In this document: positions 5,474-39,821 of the stretch, one piece after another | Layout of the letters: every line of letters starts with the position of its first letter | Position numbering within the stretch: the first letter of the stretch is position 1 | Assembly (NCBI RefSeq): GCF_025947185.1 | Contig: NZ_CP110001.1 | Span: forward strand, 62,001 to 126,000 | Direction: 5' to 3' | Length of the DNA: 64,000 nt | Origin: Flavobacterium sp. N2038 | GTDB lineage: Bacteria > Bacteroidota > Bacteroidia > Flavobacteriales > Flavobacteriaceae | Notes under the pieces: generated by a model | The model's database searches: none | Told to the model about the DNA's origin: nothing | What the model saw: the letters and a program-made list of their open reading frames with translations, nothing else | Position numbers and translations under genes: made by a program

Positions 5474-8149
5474 TTAATCTGCTATATTAGGATTCAACCA
5501 TTTCATTGCGTAATCAGTTGGAACATTGCGTCGTTTGGCGTAATCTACTACCTGATCTTCTTTTATTTTTCCTAGTCCGAAATACCTGCTTTTTGGGTTT
5601 CCGAAATAATATCCAGAAACTGATGAAGCCGGCCACATCGCCATACTTTCTGTCAAGGTAACTCCAATTTCTTCGGCTACATTTAAAAGCTTCCAAATCG
5701 TTGGTTTTTCCAAGTGATCTGGACAAGCAGGATAACCTGGCGCCGGACGAATTCCTTTATAATTTTCTTTAATCAATTCTTCGTTGGTTAACGATTCTTC
5801 TGAATCATAACCCCAGAAATCTTTACGAACTCTCTCGTGAAGATATTCGGCGAAAGCCTCAGCAAAACGATCGGCAAGTGCTTTCACCATAATCGAGTTG
5901 TAATCGTCTAAATTCTTTTCATATTCCGCTGCCCATTCATCTACACCAAAACCTGTGGTTACGCAAAAAGCGCCCATATAATCTTCTATTCCGCTTTCTT
6001 TTGGCAGAATAAAATCGGCTAAAGCGATATTTGGAGCGCCTTTCGTTTTTTGTGACTGCTGGCGAAGCGTTAAGAATTTCTCTAAAACTTTTCCTTTTTC
6101 ATCACGCAATTCGATATCGTCATCATCAACCTGATTCGCAGGAAAAATTCCGTAAATACCTTTTGCTTTTAATTTTTTCTCTGCCAAAATCACTTTCAGC
6201 ATCGCCTGAGCATCTGCAAAAACAGAAGTTGCTTGTTCGCCTACAACCTCATCCGTTAAAATCGCCGGATATTTTCCGTACAATTCCCAAGTTTGAAAAA
6301 ATGGTGTCCAGTCAATATACGGAACCAAGACATCTAGTTCTATTTCTATGGTTTGTGCTCCAATTACTTTTGGTTTAGTTGGCTTATATTCAGACCAATC
6401 CAACGGTAATTTATTTTTACGGGCATCTTCAATCGTCAGGAAGTTTTTATCTCTCGAACGATTTAAAAATGTTTCTCTAAAAGAATCATATTCTGCACGA
6501 ATATCTGCCGCATATATTTTTCGGTTATGATCTAACAGATTACCTGCAACGGTAACGGCTCTCGAAGCATCGTTTACGTGAATTACTGTTTCTCTGTATT
6601 GTGGTGCAATTTTCACGGCTGTATGCGCACGCGAAGTTGTTGCCCCACCAATCATAATCGGGATTTTAATTCCTTGTTTATCTAATTCTTTGGCTAAATA
6701 CACCATTTCGTCAAGCGAAGGTGTGATTAGTCCGCTTAATCCAATAATGTCTACTTCATGTTCAATCGCTGCCGCAATGATTTTCTCTGGAGGCACCATA
6801 ACACCAAGATCTACAATCTCGTAATTGTTACAAGCCAAAACTACCGAAACGATGTTTTTACCAATATCGTGAACATCACCTTTTACGGTTGCCATCAAGA
6901 TTTTTCCGTTTCCTTGTTTGTCTCCTGCTTGCTTGCTTGCTTCAATAAAAGGCAATAAATAAGCCACCGCTTTTTTCATTACACGAGCCGATTTTACAAC
7001 CTGAGGCAAGAACATTTTTCCACTTCCGAATAAATCTCCAACGACATTCATTCCCGTCATCAAATTGATTTCGATAACTTCAATTGGTTTTGTTGCGGCC
7101 AAACGTGCTTCTTCAACATCTTCTTCAATAAAAGCATCAATTCCTTTTACTAACGAATGCGTAATACGCTCTTGAACCGTTCCAAAACGCCATTCCTGAA
7201 CCGCTTTTTCATCTGATTTTACTTCTCCTTTTACATTTTCAGCAAAATCCAAAAGTCGTTCTGTGGCGTCGTCACGTCTATCTAAAATTACGTCTTCAAC
7301 GTGTTCTAATAAGTCTTTCGGAATATCATCGTAAATCGTAAGCATCTCGGGATTTACGATTCCCATCGTCATTCCGTTTTTAATTGCGTGGTATAAAAAT
7401 ACCGAGTGCATCGCTTCACGAACCGTGTCATTTCCTCTAAAAGAAAACGAAACGTTACTTACTCCGCCACTGATATGCGCGTGTGGAAGATTTTCACGAA
7501 CCCATTTTGTTCCTCTAAAGAAGTCCAAAGCGTTTAAGCGATGCTCTTCCATTCCCGTTGCAACCGGGAAAATATTCAAATCGAAAATAATATCCTGCGG
7601 AGGAAAACCAACTTTGTTCACCAAAATATCATACGAACGCTGACAAATCTCCACTCGACGATCGTAATTATCGGCCTGACCTACTTCGTCAAAAGCCATG
7701 ATAATTGCCGCCGCTCCGTAACGTTTGATTAGTCGCGCGTGGTGAATAAAAGCTTCTTCTCCTTCTTTTAACGAAATCGAGTTTACAACGCTTTTTCCTT
7801 GTACTACTTTAAGACCCGCTTCGATGATTTCCCATTTCGAACTGTCGATCATAATCGGCACTCTCGAAATGTCTGGTTCTGCCGCAATTAAATTCAAAAA
7901 TTTAGTCATTGCAGTAACTCCGTCAAGCATTCCTTCATCCATATTAATATCGATGATCTGTGCTCCACCTTCTACTTGTTGTCTTGCAATATCAAGTGCC
8001 TCGTCATATTTCTCTTCCTTGATTAATCTTAGGAATTTTCTTGAACCTGTTACGTTTGTACGCTCACCAACATTCACGAAAACACTTTCCGGCGTGATAA
8101 TCAACGGTTCTAATCCTGATAATACAAGGTCTCTTCTTTTTTCTGTCAT
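5474..8149 (-). CDS. metH: Methionine synthase, C-terminal part (pterin, cobalamin and reactivation domains)
   Basis: The 891-residue protein carries the second half of cobalamin-dependent methionine synthase. The order is: methyl-THF binding barrel ([15 protein letters not shown] near residue 25), helical cap and B12 Rossmann domain with the cobalt-ligand motif DVHDIG near residue 430, and a SAM-dependent activation domain ending with [12 protein letters not shown] near residue 820. It lacks the homocysteine/zinc domain, which is encoded separately at 11046-12050 on the same strand. The two proteins should work as a complex. It is unusual that another large gene sits between the halves. Confidence 0.95.
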
Positions 8150-11045: not shown

Positions 11046-12050
11046 TTATTCAATAACCGGTGCCACTCTAGGCTTGTAATCCTTCGCAACCTCAGCCATT
11101 AATCGAATATGATCTGGAGTTGTTCCGCAACAACCGCCAATGATATTAATTAAATTATCATCTAAATATTCTTTTATGAAAGCCTGAGTTTGTTCTGGTG
11201 TTTCATCGTATTGTCCGAAAGCATTTGGCAATCCTGCATTTGGATGCGCCGAAACATTAAAACTTGTGTTATGTGCTAATGTTTTTAAATACGGTTTCAA
11301 CAAATCGGCTCCAAGTGCGCAATTGAATCCTACACTTAATAACGGAATATGCGAAACTGAAATCAAAAACGCTTCAACTGTCTGCCCCGAAAGTGTTCTT
11401 CCTGAAGCATCTGTAATCGTTCCTGAAACCATGATTGGAATATCAAGGTTACGTTCTTCTTTCACTTCTTCGATCGCAAAAAGTGCAGCTTTTGCATTTA
11501 AAGTATCAAAAATCGTTTCTACCAAAAGTAAGTCGCAACCACCGTCCATCAATGCTTCTGCCTGTTGTTTATAGGCAATTCGTAAATCGTCAAAAGTTAC
11601 CGCTCTGTAACCTGGATCGTTTACATCTGGTGACATACTTGCTGTACGGTTTGTCGGTCCAATTGAACCTGCTACGAAACGTGGTTTTTCGGGATTTTTT
11701 GCGGTAAATTCATCGGCTACTTGTCTTGCGATTTTTGCCGATTCGTAGTTTAACTCGTAAACCAAATCTTCCATGTGATAATCGGCCATACCGATTGTAG
11801 TTCCGGAGAAAGTATTCGTTTCTACGATGTCAGCACCAGCTTCATAATAAGCGGCATGAACATCGCGAATCGCTTGTGGTTGTGTTAGGGATAGTAAATC
11901 GTTGTTTCCTTTTAACGGATGCGGGAAATCTTTGAAACGCTCTCCTCTGAAATCTTCTTCGGAGAAATTATAGCGTTGCAACATTGTTCCCATTGCTCCG
12001 TCAAGGATTAGGATATTTTTTTTTATTGCTTCTTGAATTGTTATTGCCAT
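11046..12050 (-). CDS. metH: Methionine synthase, N-terminal homocysteine-binding part
   Basis: This 334-residue protein is the zinc/homocysteine module of MetH as a separate polypeptide. It begins with the [10 protein letters not shown] motif, and the zinc ligands are the Cys in GFNCALG (about residue 243) and the Cys pair in [10 protein letters not shown] (about residue 308). It transfers a methyl group from methylcobalamin on the partner protein (5474-8149) to homocysteine. A SAM-I riboswitch lies 357-472 nt upstream of its start, so excess SAM should shut it off. A stand-alone homocysteine methyltransferase is a weaker alternative, since the partner lacks exactly this module. Confidence 0.94.
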
Positions 12051-12310: not shown

Positions 12311-12406
12311 AAAAATGCGCCAATGATTCGCTCCTGATACAGAATCTGTTTCAGTAAATATTGTATGTTGTCTGGAAAAGTTTTGAGAAATACGAGTATG
12401 TATTTG

Positions 12407-12522
12407 TGTTATCTATCTTTAATACTGGAAAATGTCGTATAAAGTAGAATTTAGCACCTTCTTTATGATAAAGGGTTGCTAAGGTTTCATCGGGTCTATC
12501 CCTCCGCCTTTCGTGATAACTG
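12407..12522 (-). ncRNA. SAM-I riboswitch (S-box) upstream of metH
   Basis: On the minus strand the conserved S-box core reads GAAAGGCGGAGGGATAGACC, then CGATGAAACCTTAGCAACC, then GAAGGTGCTAAATTC. The P1 helix closes with GTTATC near 12520 and GATAAC near 12408-12413. The distance to the metH start is long (about 357 nt) and is filled with repeats; I cannot point to one clear terminator as the expression platform, though the 33-bp palindrome at 12140 is a candidate. Confidence 0.93.
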
Positions 12523-29625: not shown

Positions 29626-30615
29626 TTATTTTGCTATTGTTTCTGCCTTAAAAATATCGGCAAGTAAATGATCTAATTGTTTGTACTCGATTAAAAAAGC
29701 ATCATGCCCGTGAACAGAATCAATCTCGCTGTACGTAACATTTTCTTTAAACTTTTTTAATTCATTATAAGTTTCCAGATTTTCCTTTGGTGTAAAAAAC
29801 AAATCTGAGTTTATGGCAACGATATGAATCGATGCATTTGATTTAGACAGTAAGGTTTCAAAATCATCACTATTTCTGGTAATATCGATGGTTTTCAGCA
29901 ATTGATTCATCAATTTATAAGATGACAATTGATACCGTTTCTGCAATTTCCTGCCGTGGTGTGCCAACCAGCTTTCTATATTAAAGATTGAAAGATCAGA
30001 ATGAACGGTTCTCTTAAATTTTTCTTTGAATGATTCCGGAGAACGATAACACAACATGGCATGAATTCTGGCGTCTTCAACCGGTTTTGAAGAATTGTTC
30101 AGGATTTGCTCCTGCAGGTAACAATTGGCAATCATCCAGTCGGTCGATTTCCAGTCGGTTGCAATCGGAATTAAGTGTTCTGTAATGTTTGGCTCTAATG
30201 CAAGGATTTCCCATGCAATTCCGCCTCCAACAGAGCCTCCAATTATGGCAAACACCTGCTCAATTTTTAAAGCCTTTAAACCTTTAATAAAAATGCTCGC
30301 AATATCTCTTGTTGTAAAGTCCAGATAATTTTCGATTTCAAACGAATCGTTTCCGTTTCCGGGAACATTAAATGCCAAAACGGTATATTTAGTAGTGTCG
30401 ATCGTTTTTTCATCGCCAATTAAATCATTCCACCAGCCATTTTCTCCGGTAACTTGCGCATTTCCTGTTAAGGCATGATTTACCAAAACGATTGGAGCGG
30501 TATGCAAAGGCAAGCCGGAAAGTGTAAAACTTAACGGTAATGATGAATATATCGCACCACTTTCTGTGATGAAATCCTGAATTATAATGGGACTTGGTAT
30601 ATTTTCCAATTTCAA
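29626..30615 (-). CDS. metX: Homoserine O-acetyltransferase
   Basis: The 329-residue alpha/beta-hydrolase-fold enzyme acylates homoserine, the first committed step to methionine. The nucleophile elbow is AIIGGSVGGGIAWEI near residue 125 and the Asp/His of the triad are in AINSDLFF and VHGHDAFL close to the C-terminus. NHALTGNAQVTGENGWW matches the family. It is preceded by a SAM-I riboswitch about 75 nt upstream and followed 1 nt later by thrA. The acyl donor (acetyl or succinyl) cannot be read with certainty; acetyl is the usual choice for MetX. Confidence 0.93.
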   Translation of the reverse strand: MKLENIPSPIIIQDFITESGAIYSSLPLSFTLSGLPLHTAPIVLVNHALTGNAQVTGENGWWNDLIGDEKTIDTTKYTVLAFNVPGNGNDSFEIENYLDFTTRDIASIFIKGLKALKIEQVFAIIGGSVGGGIAWEILALEPNITEHLIPIATDWKSTDWMIANCYLQEQILNNSSKPVEDARIHAMLCYRSPESFKEKFKRTVHSDLSIFNIESWLAHHGRKLQKRYQLSSYKLMNQLLKTIDITRNSDDFETLLSKSNASIHIVAINSDLFFTPKENLETYNELKKFKENVTYSEIDSVHGHDAFLIEYKQLDHLLADIFKAETIAK

Positions 30616-30689
30616 ATCTTTTTATTATTGATTTGTATGTGGAAATATTAGAAAGAAAGTCTAGAAGTTGAAACTAGAAAAATTCTTGT

Positions 30690-30796
30690 TGTTATCTTTC
30701 CACGTTTGGGCGTGGTAGAATGCAGCACCTTCTTCGACTTAACGAAGGGTTGCTAAGGATTCATCGGGTCTAATCCCTCGTCCTTTCTTTATAACA
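30690..30796 (-). ncRNA. SAM-I riboswitch (S-box) upstream of metX-thrA
   Basis: The minus strand carries AAGAAAGGACGAGGGATTAG, ACCCGATGAATCCTTAGCAA, an AAGTCGAAGAAGGTGC block and the closing helix GTTAT (30792) with ATAAC (30691). The core agrees with the SAM-binding S-box and is about 107 nt. The leader between it and metX has only a weak CTAG stem and no T-run, so control could be at translation. Above it lie a small gene (30985-31188), a terminator and a leader peptide. Confidence 0.93.
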
Positions 30797-30984
30797 TTTC
30801 AATACGTTTTTGAACTTAAAGGTACAAATTAACTACTAATTTCTTAAACAAACAAATTTTATTGAAACGATTCCTCGATTTCTTAAACATTATTCAATCA
30901 AAAACTATTATACGCAAAAATTTACCGAACAATTTGCCCAGTAAAATTATGCAGGTTTCACCCTATTTTATGATACTTTTTAAT

Positions 30985-31188
30985 TTAAATAAAAAGTGTT
31001 TCATTCTCTTTTGAATACATCAAAAACAATAAAGAATCAGCTTCTTTTTTCACCTCTTTTTTGTCTGTCTCAGTTATTCCGAATCTAGGATGAACTAATT
31101 CATTGGTTGGCGGTGGCGGATTGTTTCTTTTAGCTCTCAAGCTTTTCAATGTCAAAAATGTTTTTGATAAGTAGTTTAATGTGCTCAT
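30985..31188 (-). CDS. Small protein of 67 residues, family with the 34.5-kb protein
   Basis: I do not recognise this protein. It is basic in the first half (KSLRAKRNNPPPPTNELVHP) and acidic towards the end. The C-terminal 19 residues match those of the 55-residue protein at 34493-34660 at the positions E-x-x-S-L-L-F-x-M-Y-x-x-E-x-E-x-L-F. No membrane segment, signal peptide or metal motif is seen. Both genes follow a leader-peptide attenuator and precede methionine genes, so a small regulatory or adaptor protein for homocysteine synthesis is one guess. The shared C-terminal end suggests it is the functional part. Confidence 0.65.
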   Translation of the reverse strand: MSTLNYLSKTFLTLKSLRAKRNNPPPPTNELVHPRFGITETDKKEVKKEADSLLFLMYSKENETLFI

Positions 31189-31261
31189 GATATTTAAGTT
31201 TAAGTTAGTTTGCGTTTTATAATCTTTACTTTTTCTTTAATTCTTTGTTATGCCAGATAAA

Positions 31262-31305
31262 TGGAATAAAAAAACCCTTTTGGGTTTTTAATACCAAAAG
31301 GGTTT
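31262..31305 (-). terminator. Attenuator-type terminator downstream of leader A
   Basis: A 12-bp perfect stem (31294-31305 with 31272-31283, 10-nt loop) followed by TTTTTTTATTC on the minus strand. It stands 32 nt after the stop of the leader ORF and before the small gene at 30985, so it would end most transcripts early unless antitermination occurs. Confidence 0.85.
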
Positions 31306-31337
31306 AAGTTTTTTACAACTTATATATACTTTTAGTA

Positions 31338-31439
31338 TCAACAGACGCATACACAAATACGTGCGACGTTAAACATCTTGTTCATCTGTAGGGATTTATT
31401 CATCTGTGATTTATTTGCTATTTTAAAAAAATCTTGCAT
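31338..31439 (-). CDS. Cys-rich leader peptide A (metX unit)
   Basis: An ORF of up to 33 codons. In-frame ATGs are also present at 31403, 31385 and 31376. The end reads RICVCVC then TGA, so three of the last five codons are Cys. It is followed at 32 nt by a strong terminator. The layout is that of a ribosome-mediated attenuator, in which low charged tRNA-Cys would stall the ribosome at the end of the ORF. It is not a recognised family, and no product function is claimed. Confidence 0.55.
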   Translation of the reverse strand: MQDFFKIANKSQMNKSLQMNKMFNVARICVCVC

Positions 31440-31743
31440 TTATTTTTTCTATTAGTTGGCTTTTTGATTTGATTAAGATCTAAAAGCAATCATTTTATTT
31501 AACAATTAAGCGACTGTTTTTAACAGATCTTACTTGCCTTACAAATTTGCGATTTTTTTTTTTATTTACCAAGTTATAAAAGCTTAATTATTCGAAAAAA
31601 ACGTTAAAAAACATCTTTTTATCGTTAAAAAACATCTTACAAAATTAACATTTAACAATAAAGAAGTTTTATCTTACAAAAAATTAACTAACTTTTCTGT
31701 CTCAATCTGTCAAAGAACTATTATTCTATTATTTTAAAACCAC
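31440..31743. other. AT-rich 5' region of the leader A unit
   Basis: About 300 bp with no gene. It holds the promoter (31542-31572), a 16-bp direct repeat (CGTTAAAAAACATCTT at 31602-31617 and 31623-31638, 21 nt apart) and a box at 31639-31662 that resembles 34911-34936 in unit B. The very high A/T content makes small-motif matches less telling. Confidence 0.55.
31542..31572 (-). promoter_or_regulatory. Promoter A: TTGG, 20 nt, CAAATTTG
   Basis: On the minus strand TTG (31572-31570) is followed after 20 nt by CAAATTTG (31549-31542), close to the -7 box TAnnTTTG. The spacing and the flanking TTGG and TCGCAAATTTG words agree with promoter C. It is 103 nt upstream of the first possible start of leader A. 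Confidence 0.5.
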
Positions 31744-32832
31744 TTAAAGCCAAACTGCTTCCTTATTTTTTATTTTCTCTGCTACTTTTAAAATATCAGT
31801 GATTATACCTCTGGAAATTGCCTGTTTGCATGGTGAAGCGCTTTTAATTACTATTGGAACCTCAGCATAAGATTGCGTGTAAATTTCGAAAATAGAATCT
31901 GAACCTTTTAACTGACCTATCGCAGATGTAACAGGTTCTGATACTAATTTTACTTCGAGTTTATTTTTAGCTACATCAAATTCTCCTATATATCGCAGCA
32001 CATGATCGTCTGATTGCGCAATTTTTTCAATTTTAAACGATTTGTCAATGGCATCTTTATTAAGGATTCCGTTTTTCTCTAAATGCTCTTCCTTAATAAT
32101 AGAATTGATTTTTATATCTGAAAGGTCAAAATCCTTCCCAATTTCTCTTGTCAAAATCAGTAGTTTTCTTGCAGTATCATTTCCAGATAAATCTTCTTTA
32201 AAGGTCGAACGCATTAATCCTAATAAGCTGGCATCTTTTAATATGGACGAAAAAGAATTATCCTCGTTGGAAAAACGATTAAAAACATAACTCAGATGAT
32301 CCGAGAAAACGCCTCTGATCTTGGTGATTTTTTCGCCCGAATAATACAAATCTCTTAAAGTTTGTAAAACCGGAAAACCTGTATCTACCGAAGTTTCATA
32401 CAAAAACTCTTTGTCGTATTTTTTTAGATTTTCTCTTAATTGTTTATACAAATCAATTGGCAATGTATTGGCTTTTTTATTTACCGCTACAATATTGAAT
32501 CCGTTTTCTATTAAGGTATTATAATGGCCAATCAGTTCATCGCTGGCTGTGGCATCTACTGCAATAAGATTTTCAAATTCATTCTCTTTTGCAAACCCAA
32601 CAATATCTTCGACCTTAAAAGGAACAGCTAATTCTCTGAAATTAGTTTCCCAGGCATATCCAACACCTTCTTTCTCGAAAAAAGCAACTGTAGAATTGGT
32701 AATAATTGGAAAGTGGAAATCGATATTTTTACTCTGAAGAAAAAACTCCTGACTTTCAATAATTTGATTAATTAATGTACTTCCGATATTCCCAATCCCG
32801 AAAAGGATAATATTTATTTTAAGCTTTGACAT
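31744..32832 (-). CDS. Homoserine-dehydrogenase paralogue, active site altered
   Basis: The 362-residue protein aligns with the C-terminal half of the ThrA at 27210-29624. It has a Rossmann start IILFGIGNIGSTLINQI, the ETSVDTGFPVLQTLRDL segment and EDLSGNDTARKLLIL. The Asp (219) and Lys (223) of the homoserine dehydrogenase site remain, but the catalytic Glu (in ThrA within GYTEPDPRED) is Arg208 here (GLMRSTFKED), and SGTLSY is SDHLSY. Loss of activity, or a new substrate, is likely. It lies downstream of metY in unit B and the 24-nt inverted repeat separates them. Confidence 0.85.
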   Translation of the reverse strand: MSKLKINIILFGIGNIGSTLINQIIESQEFFLQSKNIDFHFPIITNSTVAFFEKEGVGYAWETNFRELAVPFKVEDIVGFAKENEFENLIAVDATASDELIGHYNTLIENGFNIVAVNKKANTLPIDLYKQLRENLKKYDKEFLYETSVDTGFPVLQTLRDLYYSGEKITKIRGVFSDHLSYVFNRFSNEDNSFSSILKDASLLGLMRSTFKEDLSGNDTARKLLILTREIGKDFDLSDIKINSIIKEEHLEKNGILNKDAIDKSFKIEKIAQSDDHVLRYIGEFDVAKNKLEVKLVSEPVTSAIGQLKGSDSIFEIYTQSYAEVPIVIKSASPCKQAISRGIITDILKVAEKIKNKEAVWL

Positions 32833-32869
32833 AATTTTAATTTTTTTAAAACATATCTAATTTTATTGA

Positions 32870-32990
32870 ACCATATAAGTGATGTAAGTTCATTTAATAT
32901 CAATGTTTATAATTTTAGACGCACTGTGTTTTCGAATTAGACGCACTTCAGTGCGCCTCTACTAAGATGAACTTATATTACTTATATGGT
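32870..32990. repeat. Imperfect 24-bp inverted repeat with internal GACGCACTT repeat
   Basis: The arms 32870-32893 and 32967-32990 pair with two mismatches. Between them TAGACGCACT occurs twice, and the second copy is the start of a short hairpin CGCACTTCAGTGCG. The spacer lies between metY and the dehydrogenase paralogue. Confidence 0.75.
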
Positions 32991-33085
32991 AAATTGTTAT
33001 ATGGTGAAAAATCTTTTCATAAAAAATCACCTCTAGCAGAACTCACACTGCTAAAGGCAATTTTTCAAACAAAAAACAAAAAAAC

Positions 33086-34390
33086 CTAATTTTTATTGAT
33101 GCTATATTGTGACTGCGTGATGTTTTCAAAAACAGTTTGCAGATCAGCAATTAAGTCATCGATGTCCTCAATCCCAACAGAAAGGCGAATCAAATCTTTT
33201 GAAACTCCGGTTTCCAGTTGCTCTTCATCAGACAATTGTTGGTGGGTTGTGCTCGCCGGGTGAATAATGAGTGATTTTGTATCACCAATATTGGCTAAGA
33301 GTGAGAAAAGTTTTGTTTCGTCTACCACTTTTTTGGCTGCATCAAACCCGCCTTTTAGTCCAAAAGTGATAACGCCACTTTGACCTTCCGGTAAATATTG
33401 TTTGGCTAAATCATTGTATTTACTTGATTTTAAACCCGGATAATTTACCCATACCACCTCTTCTCGTTTCTCTAACCATTCAGCCAGAGCCAAAGCATTT
33501 TCGCTGTGTTTTTTAATTCGAATGGGAAGTGTTTCTAATCCCTGAATAATCTGAAAGGCATTAAACGGACTCAAAGCAGCACCAAAATCACGCAGACCTT
33601 CAATTCGGGCTTTTGCAATAAAGGCCGCATTTCCTAAAGCTTCATGATATACTAATCCGTGGTATCCTGCTGATGGTTCCGTAAACTCAGGAAATTTTCC
33701 GTTAGACCAGTCAAAATTTCCGGCATCGATAATAACACCTCCTAATGAAGTTCCGTTTCCGGAGATATATTTAGTTAAGGAATGAATTACAATATCGGCG
33801 CCATATTTAATTGGGTTTAATAAATAAGGTGTCGCAACTGTATTATCTACAATAAATGGCACTTTGAATGCTTTGGCTTCTGCCGAAATTCCTTTCAGGT
33901 CCAAAACATCTAATTTTGGATTCCCCAATGATTCAACAAAAAATGCTCTTGTGTTTTCTTTAGCCGCCTTAGTAAAATTTTCCGGTTTTGAAGGATCTAC
34001 AAAAGTGGTCGTAATTCCTAATCTTGGCAAAGTCACTTTTAAAAGGTTATATGTTCCTCCATACAAACTATTAGAAGCTACTATATGATCGCCTGCTTTT
34101 AGCAAAGTCAATAATGTTGTAGAAATTGCAGAAGCTCCAGAGGCTGTAACCACTGCTCCTATTCCGCCTTCAAGTGCTGCGAGTCGTTGTTCTAAAATAT
34201 CGTTTGTTGGATTGTTTAATCTGGTGTAAATAAATCCAGCTTCGGCAAGACCAAATAAATTGGCAGCGTGATCAGAATTATTAAAGACATAAGATGATGT
34301 CTGATAAATTGGCACTGCTCTTGTTCCTGCATTTTTGGTAACGTCGTGTCCTGCGTGTAGTGCGTTTGTTGCAAATTTTTGTGTACTCAT
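33086..34390 (-). CDS. metY: O-acetylhomoserine sulfhydrylase (aminocarboxypropyltransferase)
   Basis: The 434-residue PLP enzyme makes homocysteine directly from O-acetylhomoserine and sulfide. It is longer than the metZ-type protein, as expected for MetY. The PLP lysine is in DIVIHSLTKYISGNGTSLGG near residue 205, with IYTRLNNPTNDILEQRLA near residue 55 and DTKSLIIHPASTTH near residue 375. It is preceded by the 55-residue protein and the leader B attenuator, which suggests that its expression responds to sulfur amino acids. Confidence 0.93.
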   Translation of the reverse strand: MSTQKFATNALHAGHDVTKNAGTRAVPIYQTSSYVFNNSDHAANLFGLAEAGFIYTRLNNPTNDILEQRLAALEGGIGAVVTASGASAISTTLLTLLKAGDHIVASNSLYGGTYNLLKVTLPRLGITTTFVDPSKPENFTKAAKENTRAFFVESLGNPKLDVLDLKGISAEAKAFKVPFIVDNTVATPYLLNPIKYGADIVIHSLTKYISGNGTSLGGVIIDAGNFDWSNGKFPEFTEPSAGYHGLVYHEALGNAAFIAKARIEGLRDFGAALSPFNAFQIIQGLETLPIRIKKHSENALALAEWLEKREEVVWVNYPGLKSSKYNDLAKQYLPEGQSGVITFGLKGGFDAAKKVVDETKLFSLLANIGDTKSLIIHPASTTHQQLSDEEQLETGVSKDLIRLSVGIEDIDDLIADLQTVFENITQSQYSINKN

Positions 34391-34424
34391 GATTTCTTAG
34401 TTTTTAGATATTGTTAATACTATA

Positions 34425-34470
34425 TATTGTTATTGTAATTGTAATTGATATTGTTATTGTTATTGATTTT
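34425..34470. repeat. Hexamer array (TATTGT/AATTGT)
   Basis: A 6-nt period over about 45 nt: TATTGT, TATTGT, AATTGT, AATTGA, TATTGT, TATTGT, TATTGA. It lies between the 55-residue protein gene and metY. Confidence 0.75.
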
Positions 34471-34492
34471 TGAAATTGTCACAGAGATCGAT

Positions 34493-34660
34493 TTAAACAA
34501 AAAGATCTTCTTCTTCATGATCGTACATTTGAAAAAGAAGTGAACTTGATTCATTTGAATAAATTTCTCCTTTTAAAAGATTCGTTTTTTGTGTATAATT
34601 TTCGTCTGTTTCTATGTTTTCAGGAAAAACACTTTCTTCGATTTTATATATTGATTTCAT
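34493..34660 (-). CDS. Small acidic protein of 55 residues, family with the 31-kb protein
   Basis: I start it at MKSIYKIEES; upstream codons fall in the terminator stem. The protein is acidic and hydrophilic, and no known domain is visible. The end (ESSSLLFQMYDHEEEDLFV) matches the 67-residue protein at 30985-31188 at about ten of nineteen positions. Both genes are downstream of a Cys leader and an attenuator-type terminator and upstream of homocysteine synthesis genes. It could be a regulator, or a precursor of some kind; no maturation enzymes are near. Confidence 0.65.
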   Translation of the reverse strand: MKSIYKIEESVFPENIETDENYTQKTNLLKGEIYSNESSSLLFQMYDHEEEDLFV

Positions 34661-34681
34661 GGTTTTAATTTTAAATAAATG

Positions 34682-34720
34682 AATAAAAAAAGCCCTTTCG
34701 GATGGCAACCAAAAGGGCTT
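34682..34720 (-). terminator. Attenuator-type terminator downstream of leader B
   Basis: A 9-bp stem (34712-34720 with 34690-34698) with a 13-nt loop and a T-run, 30 nt past the leader stop, just before the 55-residue gene. A second short palindrome, ATAGTTTAACTAT (34721-34733), lies between the leader stop and the stem and may form an alternative pairing. Confidence 0.85.
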
Positions 34721-34750
34721 ATAGTTTAACTATAACAAAGATTTTATCTT

Positions 34751-34831
34751 TCACTTTTGGCAACAGCAGGTCGGGACACACATTGGCATCATTCTACAAC
34801 ACATCATATTTCTTCCTGCTATTGTTTTCAT
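34751..34831 (-). CDS. Met/Cys-rich leader peptide B (metY unit)
   Basis: An ORF of 26 codons. The middle reads NMMCCRMMPMC and the end TCCCQK, giving six Cys and six Met in 26 residues, far above chance. The NMMxC(R/K)M pattern recurs in leader C, so the two are probably homologous. A strong terminator begins 30 nt after the stop. I take it as a translated attenuator leader for Met and Cys; a metal-binding peptide is the main alternative. Confidence 0.6.
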   Translation of the reverse strand: MKTIAGRNMMCCRMMPMCVPTCCCQK

Positions 34832-34879
34832 TTTAATTAAAATTTAATCTCATTTTTAAATTCGACTAATTCGATAGAG

Positions 34880-34910
34880 TAAATGTAGTAAGTATTTATT
34901 TAACTGCCAA
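34880..34910 (-). promoter_or_regulatory. Promoter B: TTG, 20 nt, TACATTTA
   Basis: TTG (34910-34908) is followed after 20 nt by TACATTTA (34887-34880) on the minus strand; the context TTTTGTTTGGCAG equals that of promoter C (TTTTGTTTGGCTG). The leader ATG is 49 nt downstream. Confidence 0.55.
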
Positions 34911-34983
34911 ACAAAATTTTAATATTTAACAATAAAATTTTTATAGGTCTGTAAAATAAGATCTTCCTCTTTAAAAAATAGCC

Positions 34984-35181
34984 CAAAGATTATACGGATT
35001 AAACAGATTATTACGGGTTTTCTCTTTTATTTAATTTAATACTGAACCTGTGTATTATAAAAAACCATTTACATGGGTTGAAAAATTTTAGGCACTCCCG
35101 ATAGCTATCGGGAGCGGCCTGTTTTTTCAATTACATTGATTCAAAAATCAGCATTAATCTGTTTAATCCGTATAATCTTTG
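34984..35181. repeat. 27-bp perfect inverted repeat around a 16-bp palindrome (copy 4)
   Basis: The arms 34984-35010 and 35155-35181 are exact reverse complements with the words CGGATTAAACAGATTA. Between them lies CCCGATAGCTATCGGG (35097-35112). The 360 bp between leader B and the receptor gene hold only this and promoter B. Confidence 0.85.
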
Positions 35182-35194
35182 AGCTACTTATTAT

Positions 35195-38040
35195 TTAGAA
35201 CTTAAAGCTCAAACGAGCAAAACCAAATCTTCCGTTCAATCCAAATTGAGATACTGCTCTCGAATATGCAAACTGGTTTGCATTACTCAAGTCTGTACTT
35301 GGTGCCGGAGATAATGTTGGCGTTGTATTGGTAAATGCCGGAGTTGCAGGATTGTTTCTGTCCGGATAAACATCACCTATATTATTAAACCCGATTGTAG
35401 CTCTAAAATGTTCGTTGATTTGATATCCTAAAGATAAATCTGTTACTAATTTTGCGCTGTATTCCGGATGTTCGTACACAGATGAAAATCCGTCCAGGTT
35501 TACATCTGTTGCTCCGGGATCTGTCACTTTACCAAAATAACTGTTTCTCAAATAAATATCCAGTTTCTTGATGCTAAAAGTGGTCATTAAATTTGCTTTT
35601 AATTTCGGAATTGCTTCTTCTAAATACACTCTGCTTGACTCTGGGAAAAACGAATATTTATATGGCTCTCCACCTGCGTCAATAATAGATTGCGGAACAT
35701 TTAAATCTCCCACTCTTTTAGTTTCGTTATAACTTAAAGCAAAATCATTTCTGATTATAAAATCGGGAATAACATCATATTTTTGAGAAATTACCAAATC
35801 AATCCCTTTTGTTTCAGAGTTGATTCCGTTGGTCCAGAAAGATGCTCTTTCGACTCCTTTTGTATCAAATGCCTGTTGAAATAAAGTTAATGCTTCAGCT
35901 TGTTCAGGAGTTGTAGCTGCAGCAATCTGTGCATCTGTTGGTCTTGAATACTGACCTGTTAAAACGATTCTGTCGTCGATTCTTGTAAAATAAGCATCTG
36001 TTGCAATTGTTATGTTTGCCTCCGGAATTTTAAATGTAAATCCTGTACTGATACTTTTTGATTTTTCTGGTTTCAAGTTTTCTACTCCAATACTTTTTGC
36101 TGCTTCAGAATCATTTGTAAAATAACCTACCTGATATGGCGCACCGTTTATGAATTGTGTCGAGCTTGATTCAAAATATTTTTGCTGTAATGAAGGCGCC
36201 CTAAAACCTGTTTGTCCTGAAATTCTCCAGTTAATATTGTCGTTTAATTTTAAAAGAGAAGCTAATTTAAAGATTACTGTACTTCCAAAATCAGAATAGT
36301 TTTCATAACGTAATGCTCCGTTTACAAGCCATTTTTCGGTTGCATTTAATTCCAGATCAACATAAGCCGCACCACTTTTTCTATCTTTCTCTTTAGCATC
36401 TGAAGGCTGAAATCCTGAAAATCCCTGCGCTCCTGCTCCACGTTTGTTTCCAAAAAAGTCAGTAACGATTAAAGGAGAATTACTTGGCAAAATTCCCGAA
36501 ACAAAATCTCCGTTTACATCATACAATCCGTAAGAGGCTTCTTCTCCAGCTTTAATCTGGTAATTTTCATATCTGAATTCACCTCCAAAAGCAACATTCA
36601 GACCAGCAAGAACATCATATTTTTTACTAAAATCTAAATTGGTTGTACTTTGTAGAAATGAAACTTTTCCGGCATCAAAACTAAAAGGAGAGTTGGTTCC
36701 TAAAGTTGCATTAATAGTATTGTTTACATCATACTTAAAAGAATTTGTCCCGAGGTTTGTACTCAAATCGGTATCAAATCCAAACAATTCTGTATTAACA
36801 CCTACGGCAGCAGAAGCATCTAAGATGTCTGATTCAATTTCTGGTAAAAATCCGTTTTCATAAACCTGAGTAAAAGTTCCTGAACCATTTGGCAGCCTGT
36901 TAAAAGCATATGATTTACCATTTCTATAAGATACTCCACCAAAAGAATATAAAGATGTTGTTTCTGTTAATGGATATTTTGCATTATAATAGGCTTGTCC
37001 TGAGGCTAGTTCTGACTGTCCTACACTCATATTATAATCACTTCTTTCCTGCCCTCTGTAAGCAAGTTCATTATTAGTTACATCAAAATTCAATGCGGTT
37101 TGCATTTGTGTAAGTGTTGTAGCTCCGGCGATAGCGGTTTGTTGTGCCGCAGTAAAATAACTTACCTGAGGCGCATATTGCTTTAATGAAGTTAGAATTT
37201 GTGCCGAATTTGGTGTTGTATTAATATTACTAAACAAGGAGTTTATTTCAACACCATTTTGTGCAGCTCTGTTCTCGACAGCATTATAGGCATTAAAAAT
37301 CGCATTGCTTCTAATTCCTGCTCTGCTGGTGGTTTGTCTTGTTACAGCACTACCGGTAACATTTAGGAAACTTCCCGTTTGCCTAATGAAGTTCCGTAAT
37401 TTAAATCGACTTGTACGGTTTGTCCGTCTGCTCCACCTTCAAAATTATTTGATCCTGAAGATAAATTAGCTCCATATTGGATTCCTCCCGAAATAAAATT
37501 AGCATTCTTTTTAAGCACGATATTGATTACTCCCGCAATAGCATCAGAACCGTATTGTGCAGCGGCACCATCTCTTAAAACCTCAATTCTTTCGATGGCA
37601 AAAGACGGAATAGCATTTAAATCTGTACCTACAGATCCTCTTCCCGGTGATCCGTTTATATTTACCAAAGAGCTTGTATGTCTTCGTTTACCATTTACCA
37701 AAATTAAAACCTGATCGGGTCCCAAACCTCTTAATTGCGCTGGATCGACGTGGTCTGTTGCATCTGCTGTTGATGTTGCATTACTGGTAAACGACGGTGC
37801 AACGTAGTTTAAAATTTGTGTTACGCTCGTTTGCGGCGCACCTTTTGTTATTTCGGTTACGTTAAAAACATCAACCGGAACCGGTACATCTGTCTTAACT
37901 CTATTTTTACTTCTGGATCCTACAATAGTAACTTCAGATAATTCATTGTTTTTCAAAGTATCCTGCTCTTTTTTATTTTCCTGAGCTTTAATCCCCGAAA
38001 ATGTCAAAAGACCTAAAATTATTAGTACATTTTTCTTCAT
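35195..38040 (-). pseudogene. TonB-dependent receptor, frameshifted in the barrel
   Basis: The N-terminal frame (37363-38040) gives a signal peptide, a plug domain with QLRGLGPDQVLILVNGKRR, HTSSLVNINGSPGRGSVG and IEVLRDGAAAQYGSDAIAG, and then stops at GKREVS. In the +1 frame the reading continues as GSFLNVTGSAVTRQTTSRAG and joins the 680-residue second frame (35195-37237), a 16-22 strand barrel ending in RFGFARLSFKF. One A too few in the AAA run at 37378-37380 explains the break; with it restored the protein is about 949 residues. Outer-membrane import of an unknown ligand; the leader C attenuator suggests a sulfur compound. It is either a pseudogene or a sequencing error. Confidence 0.85.
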
Positions 38041-38101
38041 TTCTTTAACTGATTAATTAGTGTTTTTGGCTTTAAAAAAAATTATGGTATTCCTGTTTTT
38101 G

Positions 38102-38134
38102 AACAAAAAAAAACCTCTGCAATCTGCAGAGGTT
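38102..38134 (-). terminator. Attenuator-type terminator downstream of leader C
   Basis: A 10-bp perfect stem (38125-38134 with 38112-38121) with a 3-nt loop and nine Ts on the minus strand; 23 nt after the leader stop, and about 70 nt before the receptor start. Confidence 0.9.
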
Positions 38135-38157
38135 CTATATGAATTTTTGAAAAAAAA

Positions 38158-38226
38158 TTACAATAGTGTCTCTGCGGAGAACTCCGGCATCTTACAAGAC
38201 ATCATATTGCAAATTGTTGTTTTCAT
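38158..38226 (-). CDS. Leader peptide C (TonB receptor unit)
   Basis: An ORF of 22 codons starting MKTTICNMMSCKMPEF. It has two Cys and four Met residues. The block NMMSCKMP matches NMMCCRMMP of leader B and both begin with MKT. It is followed at 23 nt by a very strong terminator and lies upstream of the receptor gene. Its Cys codons are farther from the terminator (57 nt or more) than in A and B, which a stalling model has to explain. Confidence 0.55.
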   Translation of the reverse strand: MKTTICNMMSCKMPEFSAETLL

Positions 38227-38247
38227 TTTTTTTCTATTTTGATGAGG

Positions 38248-38278
38248 CAAATTTGCGAACTATTTTTCAATCAGCCAA
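38248..38278 (-). promoter_or_regulatory. Promoter C: TTGG, 20 nt, CAAATTTG
   Basis: TTG (38278-38276) and CAAATTTG (38255-38248) on the minus strand are 20 nt apart, as in A and B. The upstream word TTTTTGTTTGGC matches promoter B. The leader ATG lies 22 nt downstream. It is back to back with the metK promoter on the plus strand. Confidence 0.55.
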
Positions 38279-38369
38279 ACAAAAACCAAAATAATTTCTA
38301 TTACCCTATCAATTTAGTATGTTTATGTTAAATTTCTGCCTATAAAAATAAAAAAAGTTGAACTTTAAT

Positions 38370-38398
38370 TTGCAAATCAAAATGGTTTTATACCTTTG
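38370..38398 (+). promoter_or_regulatory. metK promoter
   Basis: TTG (38370-38372), an 18-nt spacer and TACCTTTG (38391-38398) on the plus strand fit the Bacteroidota -33/-7 boxes. Transcription would begin near 38404, a few bases before the first helix of the riboswitch. Confidence 0.7.
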
Positions 38399-38409
38399 CA
38401 CCCGAATAC

Positions 38410-38506
38410 AGAGGAAAAATTTGAACTGATTGCAACCTCTTCATAATGAAATGATTCGTTGTGAATGCTGAAAGATTCATTTCAGTAGTAAAAAATGCTA
38501 AAGCAG
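38410..38506 (+). ncRNA. Probable SAM-II riboswitch upstream of metK
   Basis: The leader has a P1 helix GAGG (38411) / CCTC (38436), a loop ATTTGAACTGATTGCAACC and, after an inserted hairpin (38447-38457 with 38474-38484, 10 of 11 pairs), AAAAAATGCTAAAGCAG. These words match the SAM-II pseudoknot pattern I remember (AUUU...UUGCAA...GCUAAA). Two alternative pairings look like an expression platform: GCTAAAG (38497-38503) with CTTTAGC (38515-38521), followed by a T-run, and GAGGAAAA (38411-38418) with TTTTCCTC (38537-38544), which would break P1. Gene context (SAM synthetase) supports it. Confidence 0.75.
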
Positions 38507-38570
38507 AAACTCTTCTTTAGCCCTTTTTAGCAATTATTTTCCTCGCTTAATTTTAAATTTAATCATTATT

Positions 38571-39821
38571 ATGGCTTATTTATTTACGTCAGAATCTGTT
38601 AGTGAAGGGCATCCAGACAAAGTTGCAGATCAAATTTCGGATGCATTAATTGATAACTTTCTGGCATTTGATGCTGACTCAAAAGTAGCTTGTGAAACTC
38701 TTGTTACAACTGGTCAGGTAATTTTAGCAGGTGAAGTAAAATCAAATACTTATCTTGATGTACAACAAATTGCTCGCGAAGTAATCCGTAAAATTGGATA
38801 TACTAAAAGTGAGTATATGTTTGAAGCGAATTCTTGTGGAATTTTATCTGCTATTCACGAGCAGTCTGCAGACATTAATCAAGGTGTTGACAGAGCTAAG
38901 CCAGAAGAACAAGGTGCTGGTGACCAGGGAATGATGTTTGGTTACGCTACAAACGAAACTGAAAACTACATGCCATTGGCATTAGATTTATCTCATAAAT
39001 TATTACAAGAGTTAGCTATTTTAAGACGTGAAAACAAAGAAATCACGTATTTGCGTCCAGATGCTAAATCTCAGGTTACTTTAGAATACAGCGATGATAA
39101 CAAACCAACTCGTATTGATGCGATTGTTATCTCTACTCAACATGATGATTTTGATGAAGAAGCTACAATGTTGGCTAAAATCAAAAAAGATATTATCGAA
39201 ATTCTTATTCCAAGAATTATCGCTAAAAATCCAACACACGCACATTTATTCAACGATAAAATCAACTACCATATTAACCCAACAGGAAAATTCGTTATTG
39301 GAGGACCTCACGGAGATACTGGTTTAACAGGAAGAAAAATCATCGTTGATACTTATGGTGGAAAAGGTGCTCACGGTGGTGGTGCATTCTCTGGAAAAGA
39401 TCCAAGTAAAGTAGACAGAAGTGCTGCTTATGCTACACGTCATATCGCTAAAAACTTAGTAGCTGCCGGTGTTGCTGACGAAATCTTAGTTCAGGTTTCT
39501 TACGCAATTGGAGTTGCTGAGCCAATGGGAATTTTCATTGAACCTTACGGAACTTCTAAAGTAAACTTAACAAACGGTGAAATCGCTAAAAAAGTAGAAG
39601 CTATCTTTGATATGCGTCCTTACTTTATCGAGCAACGTCTAAAATTAAGAAATCCTATTTATAGCGAAACTGCTGCTTACGGACACATGGGACGTAAACC
39701 AGAAACTGTAACCAAAACTTTCTCTGCTCCGGGTGGAAACGAAAAAACAGTTACTGTTGAATTGTTTACATGGGAAAAACTTGATTTTGTTGACCAGGTA
39801 AAAGCTGCTTTTGGATTATAA
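38571..39821 (+). CDS. metK: S-adenosylmethionine synthetase
   Basis: The 416-residue enzyme makes SAM from methionine and ATP. Hallmarks are [19 protein letters not shown] at the N-terminus, the ATP-binding [18 protein letters not shown] near residue 120 and the P-loop-like [21 protein letters not shown] near residue 245. The length is slightly longer than E. coli MetK (384), as in other Flavobacteriia. It has its own promoter and a probable SAM-II riboswitch in the leader, so the end product would control its maker. Confidence 0.97.

Follow-up and report, generated by a model that had tools for sequence, protein, structure and literature searches.

Candidate ribosome-mediated attenuators with mixed methionine and cysteine codons upstream of sulfur amino acid genes in Flavobacterium and other Bacteroidota

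Classical attenuators, such as those of trp, his, phe and leu, combine a leader open reading frame (ORF) carrying control codons with a 1:2 helix, an antiterminator and an intrinsic terminator. In a 64,000-nucleotide stretch of the genome of Flavobacterium sp. N2038 (NZ_CP110001.1, positions 62,001 to 126,000; hereafter the window), three units on the minus strand, designated C, B and A, share much of this outline: each has a short ORF rich in methionine (Met) and cysteine (Cys) codons followed by an intrinsic terminator, and they precede a TonB receptor gene (C), metY (B) and metX (A). Both metY and metX serve Met synthesis. From comparative sequence analysis we consider it likely, with a probability of roughly 0.88, that these units are classical ribosome-mediated transcription attenuators with mixed Met/Cys control codons.

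Among described systems, uORFC-8-2 is an upstream ORF that has an intrinsic terminator and a tandem pair of Cys codons, in most cases codons 14 and 15; it has been read as a case of ribosome-mediated attenuation and, in the portions of the report available to us, is placed only before cysS in Rhodobacterales (PMC8632094). In actinobacteria, cys leaders with a run of Cys codons near the stop codon precede sulfur genes; the accessible text describes a conserved terminator hairpin as absent and suggests Rho-dependent termination (PMC1262725). For Flavobacterium psychrophilum, strong clues for leader-peptide attenuation upstream of amino acid biosynthesis operons have been presented, with pheA, hisG and others named as conserved 5' elements (PMC9723704). 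The main text of that report does not contain the word 'methionine' and uses 'cysteine' a single time, of a protease; a metY leader may be listed in its Table S7. In Bacteroides thetaiotaomicron, small ORFs in long 5' untranslated regions, for example that of BT_4401, are called reminiscent of attenuating leader peptides in the part of the report at hand (PMC7366714). Our literature search found no attenuator with Met control codons and no Met/Cys leader attenuator in Bacteroidota, and the only Cys leader with an intrinsic terminator among the texts it returned, some of them partial, was the Rhodobacterales cysS motif (PMC8632094).

Unit C comprises an ORF of 22 codons (MKTTICNMMSCKMPEFSAETLL) at 38158-38226 and a terminator hairpin at 38110-38136, with a U-tract from about 38109; pairing analysis identified GCAGAG within the ORF (38170-38175) and CTCTGC in the 5' arm of the terminator (38126-38131) as the 5' and 3' strands of a predicted antiterminator. 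In unit B, the ORF of 26 codons (MKTIAGRNMMCCRMMPMCVPTCCCQK) occupies 34751-34831. Its codons 3-6 contain region 1 (CAAUAGCAGG, 34815-34824), which by folding and covariation is partnered by CCUGCUGUUG at 34770-34761; region 2 (CCUGCUGUUGCCAAAAG, 34754-34770) includes the antiterminator core GCCAAAAG at 34761-34754, and the terminator (34690-34720) holds the partner of that core, CTTTTGGT, at 34715-34708. Unit A has the longest ORF, 33 codons (MQDFFKIANKSQMNKSLQMNKMFNVARICVCVC) at 31338-31439, with the antiterminator 5' strand TTGATACTAAAAG at 31329-31341, its partner CTTTTGGTATTAA at 31300-31288, and a terminator at approximately 31272-31305 with a U-tract from about 31271. All three ORF-terminator pairs of a preliminary description of the window were thus recovered where it had placed them. 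That description also reported a strong terminator 23-32 nt past each stop codon; strong terminators do stand just past the stops, at 21 nt in C, 30 nt in B and 32 nt in A by the present hairpin boundaries, so that the range becomes 21-32 nt. The terminators of B and A have the core CCCTTTTGG in common.

The conservation counts that follow rest on a metY search of named genomes, in which the best 80 of at least 558 candidate loci were fetched (loci and genomes are cited below by handles beginning with L and G). At least one Cys/Met-rich ORF with a terminator precedes metY in all 80. Leader type B was assigned in 78 of these relatives (window excluded), C in 73 and A in 57. A fourth type, D (for example MKFNLCNMSKKAIQVKTCKGRCI), lies upstream of A in six loci (L072, L074, L082, L087, L032 and L066), and there are four or more further D-like leaders below the assignment cut-off, among them L069, L086, L092 and L097. 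In two loci (L086, L088) only a C-type leader stands before metY. The count for B includes L092 and L097, both with an A-type peptide; A-type leaders in B's place, together with the common terminator core, suggest that A and B are duplicates. The preliminary description had named lack of conservation of the ORF and terminator pair in relatives as an outcome that would speak against its proposal, and the pair is instead widely retained.

Few other sequences in these loci look like leaders. Counted on both strands, the 80 loci (2.93 Mb) hold 543 pairs of a short ORF and a terminator; 197 pairs have at least five internal Cys and Met codons, and 194 of these are assigned leaders, while one of the remaining three (L083) looks like a C-type leader. 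Cys and Met make up 17.7% and 20.2% of codons in B leaders (93 distinct ORFs), 9.2% and 15.0% in C (75) and 7.1% and 10.4% in A (53), compared with 0.48% and 0.69% in seven genes of the window. The leaders are therefore short ORFs rich in codons for the amino acid of the operon (Met 10-20%, Cys 7-18%), and the unusual content reported earlier stands, except that Cys does not lead: Met is enriched at least as much. When a model built from B units alone (R2) was run on the whole of the window's own genome, units B, A and C ranked first, with rough E-values of 7.1e-24, 3.2e-6 and 0.0014, and inspection of the next top matches (0.040 and 0.057) revealed no Met/Cys-rich leader. A model of C (R1), run over 41 genomes, gave strong matches, down to a similarly rough 7.1e-27; because background matches lie at about 1e-3 to 1e-2 in most genomes, no site count is drawn from it, and in the own genome no convincing Met/Cys leader was found at three further top matches.

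Promoters were recognised by sequence match ahead of each ORF in the window, with TTG and the -7 box separated by 20 nt in every case, as had been noted before: at 38248-38278 for C (box CAAATTTG), 34880-34910 for B (TACATTTA) and 31542-31572 for A (CAAATTTG), where the box ends 102 nt 5' of the leader ORF. A promoter match precedes 80/86 C units (with a spacer of 20 in 69), against 80/860 random control windows, and 61/102 B units, against 98/1020. For A units the match lies within 230 nt in 54/58, a range for which there is no control, and within 120 nt in only 2/58.

Alignments indicate that the upstream part of the leader ORF is kept as a protein code. Gaps in alignment A1 (columns 31-107) and alignment A2 (columns 13-62) are multiples of three, the exceptions being a one-base step at one place per alignment and one 4-base gap, and Cys codons interchange between TGT and TGC. 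The other two frames carry stops in 53/53 and 53/53 distinct ORFs of A, 93/93 and 75/93 of B, and 75/75 and 44/75 of C. At the end of the ORF, by the same kind of evidence, it is the letters that are conserved and not the reading frame. The GCAGAG of C units is read SAE-like in 69/86, PQR-like in 16/86 and otherwise in one, and in B units TTGCCAAAAG is read LPK in L061 and L073 and CQK elsewhere (LLLPKVKE as opposed to CCCQK).

In all three units an element at the ORF end is complementary to the 5' arm of the terminator, and folding from the ORF end to this arm yields the antiterminator in each window unit (z of -2.8 for C and -2.1 for A). Each unit thus has an intrinsic terminator between leader and gene and an antiterminator that would exclude it. 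With alignment-anchored B sequences (34), 96.0% of cells pair in the antiterminator, compared with 28-65% when the arms are slid; anchoring on the best run, which favours pairing and drops units lacking the anchor motif or a pairing run, gives 92.7% in both B (52 distinct blocks) and A (29), compared with 30-62%. The mean fraction of shuffled leader segments that form as good a contiguous helix is 0.007 for A (45 units), 0.053 for B (82), 0.052 for C (82) and 0.120 for D (6), and shuffles match the duplex energy in 4% of cases for C and 2% for D. The pairing has also been re-made with other letters, as in UGCUAUUGCCAG:CUGGUAAUAGCG (L117), AGAUAUUGCC:GGUAAUAUCU (L070), GGUAUUACC:GGUAAUACC (L139), CGCAGCG:CGCUGCG (L140), GCAGGG:CCCUGC (the C unit of L132) and GGGAGGU:ACCUCCC (D). 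Covariation is clearest in the 1:2 helix of B, which joins codons 3-6 to codons 21-24: it covaries in 7/9 pairs, with 34 two-sided cells against 9.0 in shuffles and a score of 0.320 against 0.174 (reached in 0/500). This helix overlaps the antiterminator by a few bases, and the fold allows both together; the equivalent helices of A and C are predicted by folding only. In the terminator of B, 99.5% of cells are paired.

The placement of the control codons was analysed by folding the RNA that extends from a ribosome at each codon to the end of a newly transcribed terminator 5' arm; codons are termed permissive if a ribosome stalled at them does not obstruct the antiterminator, and the last of them marks the boundary. 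With the ribosome at the stop codon, all four types (A, 55 units; B, 93; C, 84; D, 6) have a predicted antiterminator probability of 0.00, and with the ribosome at earlier codons the mean maximum is 0.96-0.98 in each. The share of Met among permissive codons is 11.1% in A, 26.5% in B, 24.0% in C and 6.4% in D, compared with 0.0, 1.9, 2.0 and 2.2% among the others; in C, Cys follows the same rule (15.0% versus 0.8%). The pattern extends to 17 distant units (14 from the phylum set described below, plus L140-L142), where Cys and Met make up 13.5% and 20.7% of permissive codons and 3.2% and 2.2% of the others. In 33 units hand-picked for diversity, Met or Cys occupies 154/264 (58%) of the eight codons up to the boundary, as against 92/574 (16%) elsewhere, a difference reached in 0/5000 shuffles of codon order. 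Control codons are therefore so placed that stalling would free the antiterminator and completion of the ORF would block it. Leaders of Flavobacterium and of family f37 mix Met and Cys, while three leaders (L132, L141, L142) have one Cys codon or none; Met codons appear on these data to be the more constant signal. Sensing of Cys alone was considered, and rejected on the basis of the Met-rich leaders with little or no Cys and of the codon-placement scan.

From these ORFs, alternative pairings and codon positions we infer that the leaders are translated and that a ribosome trails RNA polymerase through them. With Met-tRNA and Cys-tRNA both charged, the ribosome would reach the stop codon and cover the antiterminator element, and the terminator would form. 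If either tRNA were short of its amino acid, the ribosome would stall within the Met/Cys cluster and leave the element free to pair with the terminator 5' arm, and transcription would read through into metY, metX or, in this clade, the TonB receptor gene. A resemblance to ribosome-mediated attenuation had already been proposed for the window, and the proposal gains support from the antiterminator in all three units, the deep conservation, the covarying 1:2 helix of B and the placement of the control codons.

Several results weigh against this reading. The antiterminator fold of B in the window does not surpass that of shuffles (z -1.04, 31/200), and duplex energy compared with simple shuffles is weak for A (as good in 14%) and B (16%, from a set that included some non-leaders). 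Within the genus, alignment A1 contains no two-sided antiterminator cells for B; in the sets anchored on the best run, two-sided changes number five in B (reached by 24/500 shuffles) and six in A (1/500). Because the letters hardly vary, pairing persists in these sets when arms are swapped between units, at 90.5% in B and 89.6% in A. With so little two-sided change within the genus, compensation is found mainly between leader classes and in distant lineages. The minimum-energy fold of the complete unit A of the window retains the antiterminator, with only a short 7-bp hairpin before the U-tract, RNAalifold drew the 1:2 helix of B in one run and not in another, and the antiterminators of two Cys-free leaders (L141, L142) are weak. 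The placement rule does not hold for the last Cys codons of A and B, Cys being commoner past the boundary in B (29.6 versus 14.0%), A (47.0 versus 4.3%) and D (17.4 versus 6.4%); we attribute these codons to the RNA pairing, and a ribosome stalled at them would favour termination. Finally, the ribosome-free fold gives the antiterminator with a mean probability of 0.93 in A, 0.76 in B, 0.62 in C and 0.94 in D (0.92, 0.88 and 0.09 for A, B and C of the window). Untranslated A, B and D leaders would therefore be expected to read through, unlike trpL.

Could the units nevertheless be something other than amino acid attenuators? The same RNA switch could serve nascent-peptide arrest of the TnaC type, in which a Cys/Met-rich peptide inside the ribosome tunnel would itself respond to a metal, to thiols or to the redox state; Cys and Met are reactive towards metals and redox agents, and amino acid attenuators do not usually mix Met and Cys control codons. 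We nonetheless regard such arrest as unlikely, since lineages have different peptides that agree only in how much Met and Cys they contain and where, since Cys is scarce or missing in some Met-rich leaders (L132, L141, L142), and since the genes behind the metY leaders are Met-synthesis genes. That B and C in the window each have a promoter and a terminator, C amounting to a complete short transcription unit, could also mean that the units produce small functional peptides or small RNAs that merely lie beside met genes and do not control them. This is very improbable given that the letters of the leader end and terminator arm are kept while the frame changes, that a promoter match between the two leaders is missing in 36/52 tandem C-B pairs, and that leaders precede metY across the phylum, alternating or stacked with SAM-I riboswitches.

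Least credible of all is the possibility that ordinary terminators of upstream genes (TonB, HDH) happen to follow chance Cys-rich ORFs. B and A do lie downstream of same-strand genes, as such an origin would predict, but C has the divergent plus-strand ORF at 38571-39821 on one side and the TonB gene on the other, which leaves no upstream gene for its terminator to end; leader and terminator are moreover conserved together, and Cys/Met-rich pairs other than leaders are as rare as the 3/197 reported above.

The preliminary description had unit C leading a TonB receptor gene, which is so in the window, where the gene is interrupted, and in 29 of 74 C units (window included), in which a TonB-size ORF follows; it fails as a general rule, as 44 of the 74 form a tandem with B ahead of metY, and on these grounds we rejected the notion that C generally exists to control the receptor. 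Promoter matches are absent between D and A in the six assigned D loci, and two of the D-like leaders below the cut-off (L092, L097) precede an A-type leader at metY. The tandem arrangement may be the older state.

How far leaders extend beyond these relatives was assessed in two wider metY searches. Across the order, 54 of 246 genomes had a match, at 55 places, and 50 places were examined, own genome included (left out were G052, at a contig edge, G057, G074, G132 and the second place in G223). Leaders are found at 25/50 of these (counting L118, which is weak) and are absent from 25/50. SAM-I lies directly before metY in 19/20 leaderless places tested and in 0/20 of those tested that have a leader. 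Across the phylum, 190 of 247 genomes had a match and 50 loci were sampled; 3/30 in a first set and 11/20 in a second, chosen towards families with earlier matches, have leaders, 14/50 in total. All 14 are in genomes of the same phylum but outside the window's class (for example MKFSKPNTACKPACTCMCMCMMCT), and in the 13 tested (all except L237), SAM-I lies between leader and metY in every case. Unit A of the window has the same order, namely leader, SAM-I and metX. In 30 genomes metX follows metY on one contig and in the same orientation; the distance is at most 400 nt in 25 and 750-1210 nt in five (coordinates compared by eye), so that one leader can serve both genes.

With stacks of C-B and D-A in many relatives, and a single leader before SAM-I elsewhere in the phylum, genes behind stacked elements could read both aminoacyl-tRNA supply and S-adenosylmethionine (SAM). 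MetY uses sulfide, as does Cys synthesis, and a mixed leader would therefore report sulfur shortage whichever of the two amino acids fails first. We think it somewhat more probable than the contrary that the units belong to a phylum-wide class of sulfur amino acid attenuators, in which Met and Cys are mixed to report general sulfur shortage, stacking of C-B, D-A and SAM-I puts two or three checkpoints (Met-tRNA, Cys-tRNA, SAM) on one transcript, and leaders have replaced SAM-I before metY around Flavobacterium.

The surroundings of the units in the window, whose genome is a single contig of 4.67 Mb, form a sulfur island with a split metH after SAM-I, a methylenetetrahydrofolate reductase gene (metF), cysH, cysD, cysN, a sulfite/nitrite-reductase-like gene, siroheme genes, metX, HDH and metY. 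The gene behind B (33086-34390, minus strand) is metY, for O-acetylhomoserine sulfhydrylase (TIGR01326, 649.7 bits, cut-off 495.1), and the closest named metY among the matches listed, 99% identical, is that of Flavobacterium branchiicola (L019). Behind A lies a metX-like homoserine O-acyltransferase gene (29626-30615, minus strand), for which TIGR01392 is the best family at 180.8 bits, under its 500-bit cut-off. The preliminary description names thrA and metZ as putative genes after metX. The SAM-I riboswitch reported ahead of it is confirmed at 30689-30797 on the minus strand (RF00162, 76.2 bits).

Two riboswitch classes occur beside the leaders in this island: SAM-I ahead of metX and metH, and SAM-II (38405-38511, plus strand) ahead of the divergent ORF at 38571-39821, which we take to be metK. 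The second SAM-I, at 12406-12522 on the minus strand, is upstream of metH, which is split into two genes (5474-8149 and 11046-12050, minus strand) with an 828-aa ORF of a tandem-repeat family between them and a Flavo-1 RNA on the opposite strand. All these aptamers lie outside the leader units. The units themselves match no Rfam family at gathering score in the window; a lax search (E up to 5, 30000-39000) gave only sub-gathering matches (trpB motif, OmrA-B, Phe leader and others), taken here as terminator similarity, and no T-box was among the matches of either search.

Small proteins of 55 aa (34493-34660, between terminator B and metY) and 67 aa (30985-31188, after terminator A), both on the minus strand, directly follow their terminators and have in common a C-terminal pattern like SLLF.MY..E.E.LF. 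Neither these nor the leader peptides (25/26 residues queried for B) match any family in Pfam or NCBIfam. At least 12 distinct small ORFs similar to the protein of B follow B in relatives; used as a query, that protein reached E <= 1 in 13/60 genomes and was convincing only in its own genome and in G004 (1.1e-8). After C, the TonB receptor frame is broken near 37360, leaving ORFs of 225 aa (37363-38040) and 680 aa (35195-37237) on the minus strand, through either an assembly slip or a recent mutation; an ORF of at least 900 aa occupies this position in 29 relatives, and in L019 a 948-aa frame is open.

If the proposed attenuation is correct, transcription and translation would be closely coupled in these bacteria, and a conserved switch that needs a ribosome close behind RNA polymerase makes such coupling testable in Bacteroidota with a common laboratory strain. 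The alternation of SAM-I and leader at one gene in some genera, and their stacking in others, clearly illustrates how one RNA sensor can be swapped for another or added to it. The pattern of ORF and terminator also allows leader ORFs without any protein-family match to be found in Bacteroidota.

Compared with known systems, the units appear to bring a known mechanism into a new lineage, where it is joined to a new codon signal and to stacking. SAM-I (S-box) riboswitches occupy the same place before metY in related genera as the present leaders; they sense SAM through an aptamer, whereas the leader units lack any Rfam match at gathering score. Polycysteine leaders in mycobacteria have reportedly been the subject of experimental work. 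The actinobacterial cys leaders resemble the present units in having Cys codons in a leader before sulfur genes and, as far as the accessible text goes, differ in the terminator hairpin, which is present here (PMC1262725). The present units differ from uORFC-8-2 in their genes (metY, metX or TonB) and codon positions, and the available portions of that report mention no Met codons (PMC8632094). Nor is a Met/Cys leader mentioned in the part at hand of the report on B. thetaiotaomicron small ORFs (PMC7366714). With the classical attenuators the units share a leader ORF, a 1:2 helix (in B), an antiterminator, an intrinsic terminator and codons placed so that stalling would free the antiterminator. 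They differ in the mixture of Met and Cys control codons, in their Bacteroidota host, in the tandem leaders or the leader before SAM-I, and in the predicted readthrough of A and B leaders that are not translated.

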